NCBI GenBank assembly: GCA_017557525.1
Contig: JAFYYN010000036.1
Span: 62,001 to 126,000, forward strand
Origin: Lachnospiraceae bacterium
GTDB taxonomy: Bacteria > Bacillota > Clostridia > Lachnospirales > Lachnospiraceae
DNA: 64,000 nt
Reading direction: 5' to 3'
Position numbers and translations under genes: made by a program. Positions 1,084 through 56,345 of the stretch are shown one piece after another. Numbering within the stretch: the stretch's first letter is position 1; the number at the start of each line of letters is the position of its first letter. The notes beneath the pieces were generated by a model, which was not told where the DNA came from, searched no databases, and saw nothing but the letters and a program-made list of their open reading frames with translations.

Positions 1084-2781
1084 ATGAAACTTAAAACCAG
1101 GCTATTGCTGAATTCACTTGGTCCGATGCTTCTCATAATGATAATAGTATTAGCTATGCTTGCTTTTGAAATCCCTCTCTTTAATACACGTGCTACAGAA
1201 AAGGGGATGAAGGCAACTGCTTATTCGGTAGCACATGCATTAGAACTGATTGAGGGTGACTATAGAATAAATGGCGGAAAGCTGTATAAGGGTGAAACAG
1301 TCCTTACCGATGAACATAGTTTGCTTGACTCTATTAAAAATGATTCCGGTATGGAGATTTCAATCTTTTACAGTTCCATTGGTTATGCGACAACCATTAA
1401 AGATGAAGCGGGCAATTATCTCCGTCAGTTTAATATCGATGAGGAGATTGCTGATAAGGTGATCAGTCTCAACGAGGTATATTTTGACAGGGGTGCAGTT
1501 TTTAACGGAGTTGATTATTACGGATGCTATGTTCCAGTAAAGCAGAATGGCACGGAAACCAATATCGGTATGGTATTTACCGGCATGCCGCAGTCTGAGG
1601 TAAAATCAAATGTTACCTTGTGGATAATTGTTTCATTTGCAATAGTGCTCGCAATAGCTGTAGGGGCATTCATTTACTCAAGCAAATATTCGGGAGCATT
1701 GACAAAGGCTATAGTTGAATGCAATAAGGCAGCAGACAGGCTTACATCCGGAGAACTTGATATCAGACTTCCCGAGGAGCTTACCAAGAGGTCGGATGAG
1801 CTTGGTGCACTTGGGCGTTCTAATGTTAAGCTGGCATCAACTCTTAGAGATATCGTTTCTGAGGCAAAAAAATGTACCCAGGAACTCGGAGATGCTTCAA
1901 CCAACCTTAAAAAGGTTTCGATGGATACCACAGTTGCCATCAGGTCTGTTAAAAATTCAGTTAATGACATAAATAAGGCCACATCTTCACAGGCAAAAGA
2001 CACTGAAACTGCTTCGGAAAATGTTGCGGTTATTAGTACGGCAATTAATGATACATCAATGGAGGTTAAGCAGCTCGATAACAATGCAGAGCTTATGAAG
2101 GCCAAGAGTGAGGAGGCTCTGCAGATCCTTGATGATCTTAAAGGCATTACCGATGAGGCAGGAAAGGCTATCGGCGTTATCTATGAGCAGACAAACAAGA
2201 CAAACAGTTCTGCTAAATCCATTGGTGAGGCTGTAAATCTTATTTCCGATATTGCAAACCAGACAAACCTGCTTTCACTTAATGCTTCAATCGAGGCAGC
2301 CCGTGCAGGTGAGGCAGGACAGGGCTTTGCGGTGGTTGCGACAGAGATCAGTGCCCTTTCTGAGCAGACCAATAATTCGGCACATATGATCAAGACCATA
2401 ATCGATTCTCTTATGCGTGATTCCAACAATGCGGTTTCAACTATGGACAAGGTGCAGGAGATCATTGTTAAGCAGAATGAGAATGTGGACAGGACTGTCA
2501 GCATATTCAACGAGCTTGAGGACAATATCAACATTACAGTTACTACCTCTGCTAAGATTTCAGAGGATGTAAAGGCTCTTGAGGAAGCAAGAAATGTTGT
2601 TGAGGATGCATTACAGAATCTATCCGCGGTTGCTGAGGAGAATGCAGCCGGTACTGAGGAAACCTCAAATAGCATGGACAGAGTTGGCAATGTAATCAAT
2701 AAGGTTTCATCAGCAGCCCTTAATCTGTCGGATATGTCCGAAAGACTTGATCTTACGATGTCGGCCTTTAATATTGAATAG
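1084..2781 (+). CDS. Methyl-accepting chemotaxis protein with periplasmic-type Cache sensor
   Basis: A 565-residue transmembrane chemoreceptor. TM1 is about residues 8-30. An extracellular sensor of about 145 residues (35-178) looks like a single Cache domain. TM2 is 179-199, HAMP about 200-256, then a long coiled-coil signalling domain. The conserved hairpin tip is at 389-418 ([20 protein letters not shown], then [10 protein letters not shown]), which contacts CheA and CheW in this family. I chose ATG 1084 because GGAGG lies 7 nt upstream. The upstream in-frame ATG at 1030 has no ribosome-binding site and would add 18 residues before TM1. It is monocistronic and followed by a hairpin. The ligand cannot be read from sequence. 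Confidence 0.93.
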
Positions 2782-8264: not shown

Positions 8265-8318
8265 CTTGGTGTTAAAGCAGGCGTACACCTAAGAAAAAAC
8301 ACAAGTCCTGCGGAAAGG
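8265..8318 (+). promoter_or_regulatory. Pseudoknot leader with Shine-Dalgarno, copy 1 (cyclophilin)
   Basis: Stem 1 is CTTGGTGT (8265-8272) with ACACCTAAG (8285-8293), one bulge. Its loop presents GCAGG (8277-8281), complementary to CCTGC (8307-8311). GGAAAGG (8312-8318) follows directly, 7 nt before ATG 8326. The same arrangement with a different stem 1 sequence precedes four other genes in this window (12453, 46460, 50314, 53522). Confidence 0.6.
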
Positions 8319-8325
8319 TCAAAAA

Positions 8326-8844
8326 ATGCAGAATCCAGTTGTTACCATTGAAATGGAAAATGGTGATATCATCAAGGCAGAGCTTTATCCCGAGATAGCG
8401 CCTAATTCAGTTAAAAATTTTATTTCTCTTATTAACAAGGGATATTATGACGGACTTATCTTTCATCGTGTTATAGCAGGCTTTATGATCCAGGGCGGAT
8501 GTCCCGACGGTACAGGAATGGGTGGTCCCGGATACAGCATTCCCGGCGAATTCGCTCAGAATGGTTTCAAGAATGATCTTAAGCATACCCGCGGAGTTCT
8601 TTCAATGGCTCGCGCTATGAATCCTGATTCAGCAGGTTCACAGTTCTTTATCATGCACCAGGATGCGCCCCATCTCGATGGAGGCTATGCAGCATTCGGC
8701 AAGGTTACAGAAGGAATGAATGCCGTTGACAGAATAGCAGAAACAAGAGTTAATTTCCAGGACAGACCTCTTAATCCTCAGGTTATGAAAAAGGTTACTG
8801 TTGAGCTTTTCGGTGAGAAGTACGGGGAGCCCGAGAAGCTTTGA
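8326..8844 (+). CDS. Peptidyl-prolyl cis-trans isomerase, cyclophilin type
   Basis: A 172-residue cytoplasmic cyclophilin that catalyses proline isomerisation during folding. It shows the family core FHRVIAGFMIQGG, then GGPGYSIPGEF, and SAGSQFFIMH with the catalytic arginine in FHR. The loop that usually carries tryptophan reads HLDGGYAAFG. There is no signal peptide. It has its own promoter and a structured leader ending in GGAAAGG 7 nt before ATG 8326. A hairpin after the gene probably ends the transcript. Confidence 0.93.
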   Translation: MQNPVVTIEMENGDIIKAELYPEIAPNSVKNFISLINKGYYDGLIFHRVIAGFMIQGGCPDGTGMGGPGYSIPGEFAQNGFKNDLKHTRGVLSMARAMNPDSAGSQFFIMHQDAPHLDGGYAAFGKVTEGMNAVDRIAETRVNFQDRPLNPQVMKKVTVELFGEKYGEPEKL

Positions 8845-12130: not shown

Positions 12131-12413
12131 CCTTGATGGAGACAGTAGTGTGTAGCGGAAGGTCACAGTGAGCCCGTGACAGTGGAAAGCGGGTACTAGT
12201 ACTTATACATGAAGATCACTCCGGAGTTGTATCGTTGATTATTATGGATTGCACAATGGTAATACGCTCATAAGAGTAGACGATACCGGTTTCCCCCGTT
12301 ATAGGGATCGGCATGAAAGTGCGGAGAAATCTGACACGGAGTGCTTACAAAATGGGTGGTTAATAATACAGCGGCTGTATTCCTGTTTTGGAATATAGCC
12401 GCTTTCTGTTTTT
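12131..12413 (+). ncRNA. T-box riboswitch (isoleucine) with terminator
   Basis: Leader RNA that reads uncharged tRNA-Ile. Stem I features are CAGTGAGCCC and CAGTGGAAAGCGGG (12166-12191) and a likely specifier ATC (Ile) in GAAGATCACTCC near 12213. The T-box core GGGTGGT (12354-12360), preceded by AAAAT, would pair with the tRNA acceptor end. The terminator is AGCGGCTGTATTCC (12370-12383) with GGAATATAGCCGCT (12390-12403), then TTTCTGTTTTT. Position directly upstream of ileS agrees with the specifier. Specifier assignment is by inspection. Confidence 0.88.
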
Positions 12414-12424
12414 GAGAGGAGGAA

Positions 12425-12452
12425 AAAGATTGGAAGTATACTTCCAATCTTT
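12425..12452. repeat. Perfect 28-nt palindrome between T-box and ileS
   Basis: The half-site AAAGATTGGAAGTA (12425-12438) is followed directly by its exact reverse complement up to 12452. It sits just before stem 1 of the pseudoknot leader. It could be a third hairpin of the leader or a protein-binding site. Confidence 0.6.
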
Positions 12453-12504
12453 CATCCGTAGCGCTGCAGGCACGCTACGGATGGATACCATGCCTGCGGC
12501 AAGG
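12453..12504 (+). promoter_or_regulatory. Pseudoknot leader with Shine-Dalgarno, copy 2 (ileS)
   Basis: Stem 1 is CATCCGTAGCG (12453-12463) with CGCTACGGATG (12473-12483), 11 perfect pairs. The 9-nt loop contains GCAGGCA (12466-12472), complementary to TGCCTGC (12491-12497). GGCAAGG (12498-12504) follows directly, 8 nt before ATG 12513. This is the clearest copy of the leader family. Confidence 0.7.
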
Positions 12505-12512
12505 TATGAAAA

Positions 12513-15500
12513 ATGTTTAAAAAAGTCAACACAGATATGAACTTCGTCGAGCGTGAAAAAGAAGTCGAGAAGTTCTGGAAGGATGAAGACATCTTTAAAA
12601 AGAGCCTTAAGCTTAGAGAAGGCTGTCCTACCTACACATTCTATGACGGACCGCCTACAGCAAACGGTAAGCCCCACATCGGACATGTGCTTACCCGTGT
12701 TATAAAGGATATGATCCCCAGATACTACACCATGAAGGGCAGGATGGTTCCCCGTAAGGCAGGCTGGGATACACATGGACTTCCTGTTGAGCTTGAGGTT
12801 GAAAAGCTCTTAGGCCTTAACGGCAAGGACCAGATTGAGCAGTACGGTATGGAGCCTTTCATCAAGAAATGTAAGGAATCCGTATGGAAATACAAGGGAA
12901 TGTGGGAGGATTTCTCAGGCACAGTCGGTTTCTGGGCTGATATGGAGAATCCTTACGTTACCTATGATGACAATTTTATCGAGTCCGAGTGGTGGGCTTT
13001 AAAGGAAATCTGGAACAAGGGTCTCCTATATAAGGGCTTTAAGATTGTTCCTTATTGTCCCCGGTGCGGAACCCCTCTTTCTTCGGCAGAGGTTTCTCAA
13101 GGGTACAAGACAGTTAAGGAGCGTTCTGCAGTAGTACGTTTCAAGTGCGTTGGTGAAGATGCATATTTCCTTGCATGGACAACAACCCCCTGGACTCTTC
13201 CTTCAAATGTTGCACTCTGTGTAAATCCTTCGGATACTTATGTAAAGGTTAAGTGCGTTGACGGCTATACTTATTATATGGCAGAGGCACTTTTGGATAC
13301 AGTACTTTCCAAGGCTAAGACTGCTAACGGAGCTGATGAGGAAGCAAAGAAATATGAAATCCTTGAGACCTATAAGGGCAAGGATCTTGAATATAAGGAA
13401 TACGAGCCTCTCTTTGCATGTGCAAGGGCAGTTGCTGACAAGCAGAACAAGAAGGGCTTCTTTGTAACATGCGATGATTATGTTACCATGTCAGACGGTA
13501 CCGGTATTGTTCATATCGCACCTGCATTCGGTGAGGATGATGCAAATGTCGGAAGAAATTATGACCTGCCATTTGTTCAGCTGGTAAACGGCAAGGGTGA
13601 GATGACCGAGGATGCTCCTGCAGCAGGAATGTTTGTAAAGAAGGCTGATCCCGAGATATTAAAGCTCTTGGATGCAGAAGGAAAGCTTTTTGATGCTCCC
13701 AAGTTTGAGCATGAATATCCTCACTGCTGGAGATGTGACACTCCTCTTATCTACTACGCAAGAGAGTCCTGGTACATCAGGGAGACTGCAGTAAAGGATG
13801 ACTTGGTAAGAAACAACAACACGGTTAACTGGGTTCCGGAGTCAATAGGTAAGGGACGTTTCGGTAACTGGCTTGAGAATATACAGGATTGGGCAATTTC
13901 ACGTAACAGATACTGGGGTACTCCTCTTAACATCTGGGAATGTGAATGCGGGCACCTGGAGTGCATAGGCTCACGTGCTGAGCTTGCTGATAGGTCTGGC
14001 AATCCTGAGAATGCCAAGGTTGAACTTCACAGGCCTTATATAGATAATGTAACATTTACCTGTCCTGACTGCGGCAAGGTAATGCACAGGGTTCCCGAGG
14101 TTATCGACTGCTGGTTTGATTCAGGCGCAATGCCTTTTGCACAGCATCACTATCCTTTCGAGAATAAGGAGCTTTTTGAGCAGCAGTTCCCTGCAGATTT
14201 TATCTCAGAGGCAGTTGACCAGACAAGAGGCTGGTTCCATTCACTTATGGCTGAGTCGACACTCCTTTTCAATAAGAGCCCTTATAAGAATGTAGTTGTA
14301 CTTGGTCTTGTACAGGATGAGAACGGTCAGAAGATGTCTAAGTCCAAGGGCAATGCTGTAGATCCCTTCGATGCTCTTGAAAAGTTCGGTGCAGATGCTA
14401 TCCGCTGGTATTTCTACATAAATTCGGCACCCTGGCTGCCTAACCGTTTCCATGATAAGGCAGTTACCGAAGGCCAGAGAAAGTTCATGGGTACCCTTTG
14501 GAATACCTATGCATTCTTTGTACTTTATGCTAATATAGATAATTTTGATCCTACTAAATATACACTTGAATACGATAAGCTTCCTGTTATGGATAAGTGG
14601 CTGTTGTCACGTCTTAACTCAGCAGTTAAGGAAACTGATGAGAATCTTGCAGGCTATCGTATCCCTGAGGCAGCAAAATCACTTCTCGCATTCGTTGATG
14701 AGATGAGTAACTGGTATGTACGCCGCTGCCGTGAGCGTTTCTGGGCAAAGGGAATGGAGCAGGACAAGATAAATGCCTACATGACCTTATATACTGCACT
14801 TGTTACCATATCAAAGGCAGCAGCTCCCATGATACCTTTCATGACAGAGGATATCTACAGAAATCTTGTTTGCAGCGTTGACCCTAAGGCACCTGAAAGC
14901 ATTCATCTCTGTGATTATCCTGTATGTGATGAGGCTTTAGTTGACAAGCAGCTCGAAAAGGATATGGAGCTTGTTTTGGAAGCAGTTGTTATCGGACGAG
15001 CTTGCAGAAACGAGGCAAATACCAAGCAGCGCCAGCCTCTTGCAAAGATGTATGTTAAGTCAAGTAATTCCTTAAGTGAATTCTATCAGGATATCATCAA
15101 GGATGAGCTTAATGTAAAGGCTATCGAGTTTACGGATGACGTAAGCGGATTTACAAATTATACGTTTAAGCCCCAGTTAAAGACCTTAGGACGCAGATTC
15201 GGCAGCAGGCTTAATGCATTAAAAGAAGTACTTGCAGGTCTTGATGGATCAAAGGCATTTGCAGAGCTTAACGAAAAGGGCAGCATCACTGTAGAGGTTA
15301 CCGGAGAGCAGGAAATACTTGAAAAGGATGATCTGCTTATCGAGGCAGCAAAGCGTGAAGGCTTTGTTTCGGGCGAGGATAACGGTATCACAGTAGTGCT
15401 CGATACTAACCTTACTCCTGAACTGATAGAGGAAGGTTACGTAAGAGAGCTTATCAGCAAGGTTCAGACCATGCGTAAGGATGCAGGCTTTGAGGTTATG

Positions 15501-46459: not shown

Positions 46460-46524
46460 CTCGGTGCGGTGCCTATGCAGGCAGGACACCGGGGCAATTC
46501 ACAAATTTTATGCCTGCGGAAAGG
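46460..46524 (+). promoter_or_regulatory. Pseudoknot leader with Shine-Dalgarno, copy 3 (DUF6062-like gene)
   Basis: Stem 1 is CTCGGTG (46460-46466) with CACCGGG (46487-46493), one G-T pair; a second CGGTG at 46467 could compete. The loop holds GCAGGCA (46477-46483), complementary to TGCCTGC (46511-46517). GGAAAGG (46518-46524) follows directly, 7 nt before ATG 46532. It lies within an operon, after the DUF2225 stop. Confidence 0.6.
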
Positions 46525-46531
46525 TTTGAGA

Positions 46532-47254
46532 ATGGACGAACAATTATATGCGATCCCGGTCAACGACGCTTTTAACGAGGATACAGAATGCCCGGTGTGT
46601 TCTATGTACGCATCTCTTCAGAAGAATGCGATAGAATTTACCATGGGTCCCTCATACATGGAGGATGATGTACGTATGGAGACCAATGAGGTTGGTTTCT
46701 GCGCAAAGCATGTGGAGATGATGTATGGAAATCAGAACCGTCTGGGACTGGGTCTTATGCTTCACACCCATATGCAGAATCTGATCAAGGAGACCGAGAA
46801 GGCTCAGAAAAAGGGCAGGAGCTCGGGCGGCGGATTCTTTAAGAAAAATACCGAAGGCTCAGCTGTTTCGGCATATATGCGCCAGGTAAAGAACAGCTGC
46901 TATATCTGTAACCGCATCGAGAATATTTTCGAGAGGTATATCGATACCATTTTCTACCTATATGAAAAGGATTCAGCTTTTAAGGCTAAATTTGATGCCT
47001 CAAAGGGCTTCTGTGTTGATCATTATCAGGTGCTCTATGATGCAGCGGAATCTCACATGAGCGGCGGAGCATTAAAGGATTTCACCGCTAAGATCGATAA
47101 GCTTTTCCTTGAGAATATGAAGCGTGTATGTGACGATGTGGAGTGGTACACAGATAAATTTGATTACAGAAATAAGGATGCTGACTGGAAAAATTCCAAG
47201 GATGCTCTTATACGTGCAATAAAGAAGCTTGATAGTATCGAATTACAGCTTTGA
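46532..47254 (+). CDS. DUF6062-like protein with paired cysteine motifs
   Basis: 240 residues. Several CxxC-type pairs: TECPVCSMY near 18-26, EVGFCAKH near 55, NSCYICNRI near 125 and GFCVDHY near 165. The repeated C...C...H layout suggests two related metal-binding halves. I recall similar clostridial proteins as DUF6062 but cannot confirm it. ATG 46532 is right because GGAAAGG lies 7 nt before it; the earlier in-frame ATG 46469 falls inside the leader structure and would add 21 residues encoded by it. Confidence 0.75.
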   Translation: MDEQLYAIPVNDAFNEDTECPVCSMYASLQKNAIEFTMGPSYMEDDVRMETNEVGFCAKHVEMMYGNQNRLGLGLMLHTHMQNLIKETEKAQKKGRSSGGGFFKKNTEGSAVSAYMRQVKNSCYICNRIENIFERYIDTIFYLYEKDSAFKAKFDASKGFCVDHYQVLYDAAESHMSGGALKDFTAKIDKLFLENMKRVCDDVEWYTDKFDYRNKDADWKNSKDALIRAIKKLDSIELQL

Positions 47255-50287: not shown

Positions 50288-50313
50288 ATACGATGAGTGA
50301 TTATGGACCTTTT

Positions 50314-50376
50314 CGGTTTGCGGAGCAGGCACCGCAGACCGGGATCCTATTGGAAAACCAAAACAGCCTGCGAAAG
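50314..50376 (+). promoter_or_regulatory. Pseudoknot leader, copy 4 (amidase-like gene)
   Basis: Stem 1 is CGGTTTGCGG (50314-50323) with CCGCAGACCG (50332-50341), ten pairs including one G-T. The 8-nt loop contains GCAGGC (50325-50330), complementary to GCCTGC (50366-50371), which ends 15 nt before ATG 50387. GAAAG (50372-50376) replaces GGAAAGG. A small TTGG-AAAA-CCAA hairpin sits between stems. Confidence 0.65.
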
Positions 50377-50386
50377 TGTAAGGATT

Positions 50387-50920
50387 ATGACAAAGAAAGA
50401 ATGGAAAAGGCGTAAAAGAAGAATGATCATAGCGGTAATATCTGCGACAATCATTGTCTTGGCAGGTATTACGGCTCTGGTATATATCGTTATGGGAGAG
50501 CTTAAGAAATCGACAGGTAATTCGGTACGTGACGACAGCTTGTACCTGTCTGTAAACGGAGTCACAAGGACCGGAGAAAAAGCGCCTCTCATAGGCATCA
50601 TATATGTACAGAATAGCGGTTTTACCGGACTATCTGCCCTGGAGCTCAGAAACAGGTATGAGCGTGCAGATCTGGTAAATCCCCTGCTTAAAAATCCTCT
50701 GGAAAAAAGCGCGCATTATGCCGTTGGAGTTGACGGGGTATGCATAGAGATGATACCCCTTACGGAAAAGGCACCGGGCGGAGACGACCGTATAATTATT
50801 ACCTACAGTCCCGACGCAGACGGAAACTTTACAGAGGCTGAGGAGAAGGCTTTAAACGATCTGATAGAGGATTTGATGGATGAGTATTCCATCGGTTCGG
50901 AAAATGTAATCATGGGTTAG
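50387..50920 (+). CDS. Membrane-anchored, degenerate N-acetylmuramoyl-L-alanine amidase-like protein
   Basis: 177 residues. One N-terminal transmembrane helix (about 13-36) after a very basic start (MTKKEWKRRKRR). The rest resembles amidase_2/PGRP proteins: SAHYAVGVDGVCIEMIPLTE and a later SPDADGNFTEAEEKALNDLI. The first zinc ligand position reads GIIYVQN instead of the usual I-H-Y/H-T, and the protein ends before the final zinc-binding segment, so catalysis looks lost. It may bind peptidoglycan. ATG 50387 is chosen because the earlier ATG codons fall in the leader hairpin. Confidence 0.55.
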   Translation: MTKKEWKRRKRRMIIAVISATIIVLAGITALVYIVMGELKKSTGNSVRDDSLYLSVNGVTRTGEKAPLIGIIYVQNSGFTGLSALELRNRYERADLVNPLLKNPLEKSAHYAVGVDGVCIEMIPLTEKAPGGDDRIIITYSPDADGNFTEAEEKALNDLIEDLMDEYSIGSENVIMG

Positions 50921-52845: not shown

Positions 52846-53508
52846 ATGAGCTTTTTTTATACAGTGGAAGACGAAGCGGTAGCAGAGCTTACCGAGAAAA
52901 AATCAAGATTCATAGCTACCGTGCGGCCTGTAAAAAGCGAGGCGGAGGCTCTTGATTTTATCCGTGAAATGAAGAAAAAATACTGGGACGCAAGGCATAA
53001 CTGTTCAGCGTATATTGTCTTAGAGGACAATAACGAAGAGGCGGCTAAAGAACGAAGCTTTAAGGTGATAGAAAAGGCAAACGACGACGGGGAACCGTCA
53101 AAGACTGCCGGGAGTCCGATGTTAGAGGCTATTAAAGGAGCCGAGTTAAAAAACGTCGCAATAGTAGTGACGAGGTACTTTGGAGGTGTGCTGCTGGGTA
53201 CGGGCGGATTGGTCAGAGCCTACAGCGGAGCGGCACAGCTTGGGATAGAGGCTTCAAGCAAAGTTAAGATGGAGCTCTTAAACAAGATCCGCGTCATTAC
53301 CGATTATAATAGCTTTGGAAGGCTTAAGAATATAGCCGAAAATACAAGTGCTAAAGTGGAAGATACAGAATTTACCGATGAGGTTTCAACCATCTGCCTT
53401 TGCGATGATGCGGGTTTTGGCGTCATACAGGCGAGGATGAACGAAGCAACAGCCGGTAAATGTAAGATAGAGCTTTTGGATAGAAATTTCTATCCTTGGG
53501 AAATGTGA
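52846..53508 (+). CDS. yigZ: YigZ/IMPACT family protein
   Basis: 220 residues. IMPACT N-terminal domain with KKSRFIATVRPV, HNCSAYIV, NDDGEPSKTAGSPML and RYFGGVLLGTGGLVRAY, all hallmarks. The family binds ribosomes or nucleic acids in other organisms; the bacterial role is unclear. A weak GAGGGATAA site precedes ATG 52846. The PBP1A gene follows after 74 nt that hold a pseudoknot leader. Confidence 0.93.
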   Translation: MSFFYTVEDEAVAELTEKKSRFIATVRPVKSEAEALDFIREMKKKYWDARHNCSAYIVLEDNNEEAAKERSFKVIEKANDDGEPSKTAGSPMLEAIKGAELKNVAIVVTRYFGGVLLGTGGLVRAYSGAAQLGIEASSKVKMELLNKIRVITDYNSFGRLKNIAENTSAKVEDTEFTDEVSTICLCDDAGFGVIQARMNEATAGKCKIELLDRNFYPWEM

Positions 53509-53521
53509 AAAACTAGTTTTT

Positions 53522-53568
53522 CAGACGGTTTGCCCGGCAGGCAGACAGACCGTTTGATACATGCCTGC
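53522..53568 (+). promoter_or_regulatory. Pseudoknot leader, copy 5 (PBP1A gene)
   Basis: Stem 1 is CAGACGGT (53522-53529) with ACCGTTTG (53549-53556), one G-T pair. The loop presents GCAGGCA (53537-53543), complementary to TGCCTGC (53562-53568), which ends 14 nt before ATG 53583. Unlike the others it lacks GGAAAGG and any clear Shine-Dalgarno. A 16-nt palindrome, GAAAAACT-AGTTTTTC, directly precedes stem 1. Confidence 0.6.
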
Positions 53569-53582
53569 AAAATGATCAGAAA

Positions 53583-56345
53583 ATGGATTACAGTAGAATT
53601 GGTATTAGTGACAAGCGAAAAGAATTAAAGTCCGTATCCAGACGTATGGGGAGCAAGTTCCTCATTACGGGTTTCAGGATATTTATCCTGGCCGTGGTTG
53701 CAGTCGGGGTAATAGGCGTGGTAGCGGCTTTCGGAGCGTTCAGAGGGATACTCGATACCACTCCCGATATAGAGATAGTAGAGCTTGAAGTACAGGGCTA
53801 CAGCTCAAAGTCCGTATTTTCAGACGGCTCTTTAGCTCAGAATTTTGCAGGTAATTCCGCAAACAGAATATATGTCGAGATCGCAGATATTCCGCAGCAT
53901 GTAAGAAATGCCTTCCTGGCAGCTGAGGATTGGCGTTTTTATGAGCACAGCGGTGTAGATATCAGGACGCTTTTCCGTTCAGGTTACTCACTCGTTACTT
54001 CTGAGTTTGAGGCGGGTGGTTCAACCATTACCCAGCAGTTGATAAAGAACCAGATATTCGGCGGCGGTCGTGAAAAATATACCCTCGATAAGGTACTCAG
54101 AAAGATACAGGAGCAGTATATAGCCATAAACCTTGAGCATGTAATGTCAAAGGACCGGATCCTTGAATATTACATGAATCTGGTAAACCTGGGAAATAAT
54201 TCTTATGGTGTTGAGACTGCAGCCAGAGGTTATTTTGGAAAGAAAACCAGTGAGCTTACAATCTCAGAGGCGGCAGTAATAGCAGGTATACCGCTTTCGC
54301 CTACAAGACTTAATCCTCTCCTTCATCCCGATGAGAATGTCGAGAGACGTAATAAGATTCTGGGCAATATGCTAAAGTATGAATTCATCACTCAGGAAGA
54401 ATACGATGAAGCTATGGCCGATACCGGAGTTTACGACCGTATAGTCGAAAACAGCAATAAGGATGACAAGGTTCAGATAGGTACCTATTCATACTTTACC
54501 GATGCCATGCTTGAGCAGTTTTATGATGATTTTCAGAACCGTCTGGGCTACACCCGTGCGGAAGCTGAGCATATGCTGTTCTACGGCGGACTTACCATTT
54601 ATACAACGCAGGATCCCGAGATCCAGGGAATAGTTGACAGGTATTATCAGGACGAGAACAATTTCCCTAAATTCGGCTTTGACAGCTCACACGGTTCATG
54701 CTATGAGCTTTCCGAATACAAGCTTTCCGTTAGGCATGCTGACGGCAAAGAAGTACATTATCAGAAGAATGATTTCTTAAATTATTTCTCGGAATATGAG
54801 GACAGAAAAGGCCTTTACTACCATGCTAGCGGTGAGAAAAAGGGTATTAATTCACTTTTCCTGGATATGGACGATCTTGAAGAAAAGATTGAACAGTTTA
54901 AGGCTGCAAAGGTTGATGAAGAGGCAGGAGATACCTATATCGAGAAAAAGGAGATCAATCCTCAGCCCCAGTCGTCTATGACGATCATCGAGCAGTCAAC
55001 CGGTAAGGTTGTAGCTATTTACGGCGGCAGAGGAGAGAAGACCGGCAGCTTGACGCTTAACCGTGCATCAGGTACTACACGTTCCGTAGGTTCGACCTTT
55101 AAGGTACTTGCTTCATTCCTTCCTGCTCTTGATGCAGGCGGACTTACTCTGGCTTCCGTGCAGGATGACTCACCTTTCTTCTACCCTAACGGTGGTAAGG
55201 AAGTTATTAACTGGTATAAGACAGGCTTCAGAGGCTTGCAGTCCATCAGAACCGGTATTGCGAATTCGCTTAATATCGTGGCTGTTAAGACTCTTGATCA
55301 GATTGGAGCTCCTTTAGGCTTCGAGTACCTGGAAAAACTAGGGTTCAGCACTCTTGTTAAGTATTATGTAGATCCCGATACCGGTAAGTCCTATTCAGAT
55401 GTCAATCTGGCTATTGCACTCGGCGGTCTTACAAAAGGTGTTACTAATACTGAGATTACTGCTGCATATGCTGCAATAGCTAACGGTGGTATGTATAACA
55501 AGCCCATCTACTATACAAAGATTGTGGATCACGAGGGCAATGTGATCCTCAGCAACAAGCCGCAGAACAGTCAGATCATGAAGTCTTCGACAGCCTGGCT
55601 GCTTACCGATGCTATGCATGATGTTACGACAAGCGGTACCGGTACAAGGCTTGCTTTCAGGAATTACAAGATGCCTGTTGCGGGTAAAACCGGTACGGCA
55701 AGTAAAAATACGGACCTTTGGTTTGTTGGTTTTACTCCTTATTATACCTGTGCGGTATGGACCGGCTTCGATCAGCCGTTTAGCCAGTGGAATAAGTCGT
55801 ATCAGCAGGATCTCTGGCGAAACATTATGGAGGACATTCATTCCTACTTGGAGCTTGAATACAAAGAGTGGGAAAAGCCTGATTCGATTGTTGAGGCTAC
55901 GATCTGTACGAAATGCGGTAATCTGGCTGTTTATGGTCTGTGTGATCATGCTGCAGGTGGGTCATGTATTTCTACTGAGTATTTCGCTAAGGGTACTGTT
56001 CCTACTAAGAAATGTACCTGTCATACAAGGGTTCAGGTATGTAGGGAGTCAGGAATGATTGCTACGGAGAACTGTCCTGAGAGCGATAAGGCTTGGGTTG
56101 TGCTCCTGGTTAAGGATGAGAATTACCACAAGTATGATGGGTATCCGGGATATACTAATGGATGCTGGGTTTCAACCTATGATACTCCTTATGTTTATCA
56201 TCCGGGCAATACCTGTAATGTTCATCATCCCGGTGACGCCGACAGTGACGGTGAAGACGGCGAAGGTGGCGACAGTGGAGATGGAGACGATCTCTTCGAA
56301 GAGGTTAGACATGACGGTCCTGAGGACGATGTCTATGACGAGTAA
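53583..56345 (+). CDS. Class A penicillin-binding protein (PBP1A type)
   Basis: 920 residues, bifunctional. One transmembrane helix at about 30-50. The glycosyltransferase (GT51) domain has catalytic E115 in FLAAEDWRFYEHSG and later GGSTITQQLIKNQ. The transpeptidase domain has S504-T-F-K507, SxN in GIANSLNIVAVK, and K702-T-G. After it comes a cysteine-rich region (about 770-840: CTKCGNLAVYGLCDH and CRESGMIATENCPES) and an acidic tail (DADSDGEDGEGGDSGDGDD). It polymerises and cross-links peptidoglycan. No Shine-Dalgarno is visible before ATG 53583. Confidence 0.95.
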   Translation: MDYSRIGISDKRKELKSVSRRMGSKFLITGFRIFILAVVAVGVIGVVAAFGAFRGILDTTPDIEIVELEVQGYSSKSVFSDGSLAQNFAGNSANRIYVEIADIPQHVRNAFLAAEDWRFYEHSGVDIRTLFRSGYSLVTSEFEAGGSTITQQLIKNQIFGGGREKYTLDKVLRKIQEQYIAINLEHVMSKDRILEYYMNLVNLGNNSYGVETAARGYFGKKTSELTISEAAVIAGIPLSPTRLNPLLHPDENVERRNKILGNMLKYEFITQEEYDEAMADTGVYDRIVENSNKDDKVQIGTYSYFTDAMLEQFYDDFQNRLGYTRAEAEHMLFYGGLTIYTTQDPEIQGIVDRYYQDENNFPKFGFDSSHGSCYELSEYKLSVRHADGKEVHYQKNDFLNYFSEYEDRKGLYYHASGEKKGINSLFLDMDDLEEKIEQFKAAKVDEEAGDTYIEKKEINPQPQSSMTIIEQSTGKVVAIYGGRGEKTGSLTLNRASGTTRSVGSTFKVLASFLPALDAGGLTLASVQDDSPFFYPNGGKEVINWYKTGFRGLQSIRTGIANSLNIVAVKTLDQIGAPLGFEYLEKLGFSTLVKYYVDPDTGKSYSDVNLAIALGGLTKGVTNTEITAAYAAIANGGMYNKPIYYTKIVDHEGNVILSNKPQNSQIMKSSTAWLLTDAMHDVTTSGTGTRLAFRNYKMPVAGKTGTASKNTDLWFVGFTPYYTCAVWTGFDQPFSQWNKSYQQDLWRNIMEDIHSYLELEYKEWEKPDSIVEATICTKCGNLAVYGLCDHAAGGSCISTEYFAKGTVPTKKCTCHTRVQVCRESGMIATENCPESDKAWVVLLVKDENYHKYDGYPGYTNGCWVSTYDTPYVYHPGNTCNVHHPGDADSDGEDGEGGDSGDGDDLFEEVRHDGPEDDVYDE

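Follow-up and report, generated by a model that had tools for sequence, protein, structure and literature searches.

A large family of pseudoknot RNA elements lies about 15 nt upstream of start codons in Lachnospiraceae

Five gene leaders in a 64,000-nt stretch of a Lachnospiraceae bacterium genome (hereafter, the window) are members of a large RNA family that has dozens of copies per genome. The core of the family is an H-type pseudoknot in which both stems covary, and confirmed copies are found only in Lachnospiraceae, in lineage-specific bursts. Judged from aligned leaders, the family appears to be a dispersed, recently inserted element and not a leader conserved along with its genes. Our preferred reading, to which we assign a probability of roughly one half, is that the element is a copy-spreading pseudoknot cassette that would dock at the mRNA exit of the 30S subunit and promote initiation in cis.

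An initial annotation of the window described five leaders built to one plan, and all five were found where it placed them. Each consists of (i) a stem 1 hairpin, (ii) the motif GCAGG(CA) in the loop of that hairpin, and (iii) a (TG)CCTGC strand 14 or 15 nt before the ATG. Measured from the end of CCTGC, the distance to the ATG is 14 nt for the cyclophilin, DUF6062 and PBP1A genes and 15 nt for the ileS and amidase-like genes, as had been claimed; similarly, two copies do have GGAAAGG 7 nt upstream of the ATG, and the ileS copy has GGCAAGG 8 nt upstream of its ATG. In the ileS copy (here and below, window features are on the forward strand), stem 1 and its loop occupy positions 12453–12483, with 12453–12463 pairing with 12473–12483, and the 5' strand of stem 2, GCAGGCA, lies at 12466–12472 (both assigned from sequence and covariation). 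The 3' strand of stem 2, TGCCTGC, lies at 12491–12497, 15 nt from the ATG at 12513 (assigned from covariation and start-codon position), and is followed by a weak local Shine-Dalgarno (SD) sequence, AAGG, at 12501–12504, 8 nt before the ATG (assigned from sequence).

The remaining four copies are arranged as follows. In the cyclophilin copy (8265–8311), stem 1 has ~8 paired bases around one bulge (~8265–8272 with 8285–8293) and stem 2 has just 5 bp (GCAGG at 8277–8281 with CCTGC at 8307–8311; ATG at 8326). The DUF6062 copy (46467–46517) pairs 46467–46474 with 46484–46491 in stem 1, and 46477–46483 with 46511–46517 in stem 2 (ATG at 46532). Stem 1 of the amidase-like copy (50311–50371) is formed by 50311–50323 and 50332–50344, and stem 2 by 50325–50330 and 50366–50371 (ATG at 50387); this copy is essentially the 61-nt stretch that is absent in congener G004. 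Finally, the PBP1A copy (53521–53568) pairs 53521–53534 with 53544–53557 and 53537–53543 with 53562–53568, and has no SD between stem 2 and the ATG at 53583. The ileS leader also contains, at 12343–12408, a GGTGG-type antiterminator and a terminator-like stretch, reminiscent of a T-box, which are conserved in congeners and were not reported by Rfam at gathering score.

The initial annotation had suggested searching with a covariance model of the copies. Such a model, R1, was built from 16 copies found via a pattern scan of the genome to which the window belongs (G000; 3.93 Mb, 196 contigs), with the start codon included. All five window copies are among these 16 and hence score well by construction (40–84 bits, versus 14.3 for the next best window match). 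R1 gave at least 81 matches in G000 at E ≤ 1 and at least 67 at E ≤ 1e-3; these counts are lower bounds, because the candidates scored were 150 of the 1047 from the first look. The simple pattern GCAGG-N20-50-CCTGCGG matched G000 29 times (28 distinct sites, of which ~16 are family members by eye), while the reversed pattern gave 0 matches. Across genomes, the parser could not handle 2 of 221 rows and read some others wrongly (the cyclophilin copy included), with about 50 rows entering as counts alone; removal of the 13 rows in which CCTGC or the parse was unclear left 208 parsed copies from ~20 genomes.

The leaders had not been recognised as a named family, and comparison with Rfam bears this out. 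In the window, a scan against 4227 families at gathering scores returned two tRNAs alone and no family at any element; at gathering thresholds, 20 further element loci gave no match at the elements, the sole matches (L153, L204) being a tRNA and a GA-cis RNA lying away from them. The latter (Rfam RF02987) is at L204:6030-6117, in a relative. A permissive Rfam scan of the ileS leader yielded weak, implausible matches alone, and no description of the element was found in Rfam or in the literature searched, which lay mostly outside subscription journals.

The family core comprises a stem 1 of 8–13 bp, a loop of 1–3 nt, stem 2 (GCAGGCA/TGCCTGC), and a third loop of ~5–37 nt. The sequence of stem 1 is free, and that of stem 2 is almost invariant. 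Among 72 distinct G000 copies, 16 of the 18 pairs have changed on both sides; double-change cells number 139, compared with 36 in shuffles (0/500 shuffles as high), and paired cells make up 89.9% of the true structure versus 23–41% of slid versions. In stem 2, double changes occur in five of the seven pairs, most of them being single sequences. R1 aligns stem 1 using its structure, which is a lean toward pairing, and does not model stem 2 as pairs; two sequence-only alignments (A1 and A3) agree that there is covariation in both stems, the last stem 2 pair having been set one column off in one sequence-only alignment. The H-type pseudoknot with covarying stems proposed in the initial annotation is thus upheld, with compensatory changes in stem 1 and stem 2 alike.

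The third loop varies in length and sometimes holds a whole perfect hairpin. One minus-strand copy (L144:3323-3423) has a perfect 12-bp hairpin in this loop, and several R1 matches of ~100–126 nt in the same genome (G420) suggest that further hairpin-bearing loops exist there. Elements can also occur in tandem: two lie before a fabG-like gene (L035:1501-1573 and 1584-1655, minus strand); stem 2 of the upstream one is degenerate, and that element lacks a start codon.

The position of the element was examined with a second model, R2, which spans stem 1 to stem 2 alone, without the start codon; it is not wholly independent, because it was trained on copies found by the start-codon-containing R1. 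All 47 R2 matches in G000 at E ≤ 0.01 end 10–16 nt upstream of an ATG that begins a reading frame of 80 codons or more, and 33 of the 47 end exactly 15 nt before it. In 800 kb of the congener G017, all eight matches at E ≤ 0.05 sit 13–16 nt before an ATG, and 141 of the 208 parsed copies are at 15 nt. Loose spacing, or copies lying away from start codons, would have spoken against the leaders as first described; instead, the spacing is fixed and 0/47 R2 matches lie off a start codon. Together with the covariation in the sequence-only alignments and the zero count of the reversed-pattern control, this position makes it barely credible that the family consists of chance hairpins or is an artefact of pattern-picking, even though the motifs are short and the models were trained on picked copies.

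Elucidation of the sequence between the knot and the gene revealed a less uniform picture. Of the 120 scored copies with AAGG after stem 2, 101 have it 8 nt from the ATG. However, no SD 4-mer is present between stem 2 and the ATG in 29 of 55 scored G000 copies (spacing 12–17 nt), and stacking of stem 2 on the SD, as the initial annotation envisaged, therefore cannot be the general rule. In relatives, an SD 4-mer is absent after stem 2 from 16 of 119 scored copies and present in 103/119, so SD loss is mainly a feature of G000. A common subclass has GGCATGATACG in place of GGCAAGGTACG. Copies of the GGCATGATACG subclass (in G000, for example, L031, L035 and L036) have a further ATG, 3 nt downstream of stem 2, which is mostly in frame with the main ATG. 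The in-frame upstream ATG of the CATGATAC subclass was considered as the true start and rejected, the frame being broken in some copies.

Three types of comparison bear on the origin of the copies. Firstly, orthologous leaders were tested across the genus under relaxed settings that recover 173 of 203 known copies. The element was detected in 2/19 ileS leaders (G000 and G004), 1/23 PBP1A leaders, 1/21 DUF6062 leaders, 1/24 cyclophilin leaders and 1/11 amidase-like leaders; the single carrier in each of the last four cases is G000. G017 orthologs of other G000 element genes, within 800 kb, carry the element in 0 of 15 cases. For ten G000/G017 gene pairs with the same upstream gene, the G000 intergenic gap is longer by 63–85 nt in five, by more still in two, and by 36 and 2 nt in two others; it is 41 nt shorter in one (i.e., 2/10 are without length gain).

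Secondly, two insertion sites can be read from alignments. At ileS, an 81-nt insertion (12432–12512; present in G000 and G004, absent from G017, G006 and G020) separates the host stretch GGAGGAAAAAGATT from the ATG, and GGAGGAAAAAGATT directly precedes the ileS ATG in G017, G006 and G020. The 81-nt figure comes from a multiple alignment and coordinates, pairwise MAFFT having misplaced the ileS gap. This insertion lies 3' of the intact host SD (GAGGAGG, 12416–12422), which is probably ancestral, standing directly before the ATG in element-free congener ileS leaders, and it brings its own AAGG. At the amidase-like gene, 61 nt are missing in G004; on the left flank 27/30 nt are identical, and on the right comes the gene start, with the 17 bases from insertion to ATG matching G004 just in part. 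Here, the insertion is 5' of the host's last pre-ATG bases. Both knots nonetheless end 15 nt from the ATG despite the different insertion points, which suggests that selection acts on the knot-to-ATG distance. In the PBP1A leader, the bases after the knot resemble, by eye, the pre-ATG bases of G002, minus the GGAG of G002. A general flank test of 65 element/empty pairs was near the shuffled level (4.97 versus 4.49); the case for insertion therefore rests on the ileS and amidase-like alignments and on presence/absence.

Thirdly, copies resemble others in their own genome. For 68.8 of 177 copies, the core has its nearest neighbour within its own genome, against a mean of 30.0 and a maximum of 45.3 in 1000 label shuffles; this test kept 177 of the 208 copies (copies of unassigned genome or odd length were dropped), and the copies from named genomes are biased toward the exact search pattern. 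In G000, 22 copy pairs, involving 14 copies, are at least 0.90 alike (as a fraction of alignment score). Given the freedom of stem 1 to vary, stems that are nearly identical before unrelated genes point to a common recent origin. Orthologous copies in common do exist: the ileS copies of G000 and G004 differ by three compensatory changes, with none broken, and across the 20 orthologous copy pairs examined, some base pairs are broken or cannot be aligned and others are compensatory.

Many copies have an additional hairpin, P0, directly 5' of stem 1, which the initial annotation had not noticed. A P0 score of 16 or more was reached by 123 of 208 copies, and by 2.7% of shuffled and 4.3% of coding sequences. 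In the ileS copy (L033), it is a 12-bp hairpin with no mismatch and a 4-nt loop (12425–12452), the first 7 bases of which match the G017 host spacer; a P0-like hairpin, GAAAAAC-TA-GTTTTTC, is also found 5' of the PBP1A copy (53507–53522), its last two bases overlapping the longest reading of stem 1. A comparison of window positions 12425–12436 with L268 indicates that the first bases of the ileS P0 5' arm are identical to the host spacer before the ATG in element-free G017, and the inserted 3' arm is therefore complementary to host sequence. Just 5' of P0, an SD-like sequence (duplex energy ≤ -4) is present in 71% of 118 copies; the same test is positive for 22% of 114 stretches used as controls and for 85% of 33 ordinary genes of the window. 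Where P0 is missing, the upstream SD enrichment is missing as well (29% versus 25%). The simplest reading of the upstream SD-like sequence is that it is a relic of insertion beside an SD. Neither this sequence nor the insertion history features in the initial annotation.

The upstream SD enrichment can be read in another way, namely that the fold acts as a bridge and brings the old upstream SD next to the ATG. A fold bridging an upstream SD to the ATG has reportedly been described for T4 gene 25, and the cyclophilin leaders of G002, G017 and G004 (L388, L389 and L390, respectively) carry a hairpin between an upstream AAAGG(A/G) SD and the ATG, with no SD after the hairpin. We consider bridging very improbable for the element, given that (i) the ~15 unpaired nt from knot to ATG exceed a normal SD spacer, (ii) the enrichment is confined to copies with P0, and (iii) a local SD is present in most of the relatives' copies.

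Recent insertions and bursts would equally be produced by a selfish miniature mobile element, whose knot serves mobility or is tolerated, is neutral to the host gene, and survives wherever insertion leaves the gene translatable. P0 hairpins and upstream SD-like relics in many copies fit such an element too, the lack of enrichment without P0 looking as if relics decay. Two observations render selfishness of this kind improbable: two sites that differ in insertion point share the 15-nt spacing, and the PBP1A leader, inspected by eye, retains the knot but has lost the SD region present in G002. Inspection by eye of the ileS and amidase-like sites showed no terminal inverted repeats, duplicated target or partner transposase.

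The distribution of the family is patchy. Within the genus, R1 matches occur in 12 of 24 genomes (67, 27, 27, 18, 10 and fewer), and several nearly complete genomes have zero; carriers tend to have an ileS at least 95% identical to that of G000, with exceptions. A coarse scan of the family (12 candidates per genome) was positive for 8 of 397 genomes, and a fuller look at the seven other than G000 gave 1–5 matches each, some of them doubtful. Among 84,980 species genomes, a pattern scan returned 65 stretches, 63 of which are titled Lachnospiraceae or Eisenbergiella; three pattern-scan loci (two proteobacterial, one Eisenbergiella) had no model match and were taken as chance. Named carriers include the isolate Lachnospiraceae bacterium AD3010 (4 matches) and metagenome-assembled genomes with 44, 23, 60 and 17 matches. 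A viral origin was considered and rejected: two pattern scans of viral contigs gave 0 and 8 stretches, the best family E-value among the eight being 1.3.

The genes downstream are diverse. Of ~70, the proteins of 15 were read with Pfam: cyclophilin, ileS, DUF6062, a transglycosylase (PBP1A-type), DnaB, HisB, PurE, dihydroorotate dehydrogenase, peptidyl-tRNA hydrolase, D-Tyr-tRNA deacylase, a GTPase (presumably Der), an HD-domain protein (which we take to be relA-type), a helicase (UvrB-like, we assume) and, below the Pfam cut-off, the amidase-like protein and a class-II glutamine amidotransferase (presumably purF). No common pathway was seen among these 15, the rest of the ~70 having been viewed as sequence alone; this agrees with the initial annotation, which found no shared pathway and on that ground argued against a metabolite riboswitch. 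A metabolite riboswitch is disfavoured.

The main rival to initiation promoted in cis is a regulatory site, at which a trans-acting protein, small RNA or ligand reads the knot (above all, stem 2) and switches a dispersed regulon, the element having spread by bringing genes under control. An almost invariant stem 2 beside a free stem 1 is what recognition predicts, and the fixed position beside the initiation site fits as well. Moreover, an alternative SD-sequestering hairpin over the 3' strand of stem 2 and the SD (TGCC-tgc-GGCA, extended) can be drawn in common subfamilies. That hairpin was, however, rejected for weak covariation, little beyond shuffles: its covariation score was matched by 28/500 shuffles and its both-side changes by 88/500, with paired cells at 0/500. 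The genes read share no pathway, and no unpaired core is conserved, the third loop varying and taking in whole hairpins. We thus regard a trans-factor switch as possible, if on balance doubtful; the strong conservation of stem 2 keeps it a serious rival. That the knot enhances or switches translation, as the initial annotation proposed, is possible.

Under the preferred reading of a cassette that promotes initiation, the element would be copied within Lachnospiraceae genomes and settle just upstream of start codons, placing the folded knot where mRNA leaves the 30S subunit. The knot would dock there, possibly via platform proteins or S1, and docking may promote initiation in cis, keeping the gene translated even where its SD is weak or missing. 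The mRNA held upstream of the P codon is ~15 nt long, so that a knot at this distance would sit at the mRNA exit. This position, taken together with two Escherichia coli precedents, leads us to favour a 30S-docking, initiation-promoting knot: the rpsO pseudoknot docks on the 30S platform near S2, S7, S11 and S18, where S1 melts it (PMC3858243), and 30S and S1 binding require the tisB pseudoknot (PMC7708055).

A more far-reaching version, which we advance tentatively, is that the cassette is a mobile bacterial RNA module of a new kind that may dock the 30S subunit ~15 nt upstream of the AUG by itself, replace SD pairing as the main signal for dozens of genes, and spread in a transposon-like manner. 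If true, initiation signals would propagate across a genome as transposable elements do; the results suggest, at least, that signals for starting translation can be spread by copying. So far, pseudoknots that aid or hinder initiation have been known from single genes, one by one. With at least 67 matches that vary in stem, loop, SD and spacing, G000 offers a natural mutational series, which could be used to ask whether structured RNA at the mRNA exit of the ribosome can replace the SD. Description of this hitherto undescribed RNA family in rumen bacteria would also improve start-site annotation.

Three sets of known systems invite comparison. The preQ1 and SAM-II riboswitches are H-type translational riboswitches in which a compact pseudoknot precedes the start codon, a layout that the element shares. 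Unlike theirs, stem 2 of the element ends before the SD region and AAGG and does not contain it, and the element has no conserved ligand core, gene theme or Rfam match at gathering score; indeed, of the features that mark riboswitches (a curated Rfam match, a stem containing or covering the SD, and genes of one pathway), the element displays none. REPINs (see PMC3116915) and MITEs resemble the element in their many short, structured copies per genome and lineage bursts, and the element likewise has dispersed, near-identical copies and empty orthologous sites. In contrast to these, the element has a single orientation and a fixed distance to start codons, and its structure would, by position and covariation, act as RNA. 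The third comparison is with the two E. coli pseudoknots. That of rpsO (S15) also lies at a ribosome-binding site and docks on the 30S platform (PMC3858243), but it serves a single, S15-autoregulated gene and includes coding sequence, whereas the element is dispersed and lies upstream of the initiation stretch of unrelated genes. The tisB standby pseudoknot, required for 30S/S1 binding and translation (PMC7708055), lies ~100 nt upstream of a sequestered ribosome-binding site in one toxin gene, while the element lies ~15 nt from the ATG of many genes. As expected of 30S-docking leader pseudoknots of this kind, the element has a knot near the initiation site that compensatory changes support.
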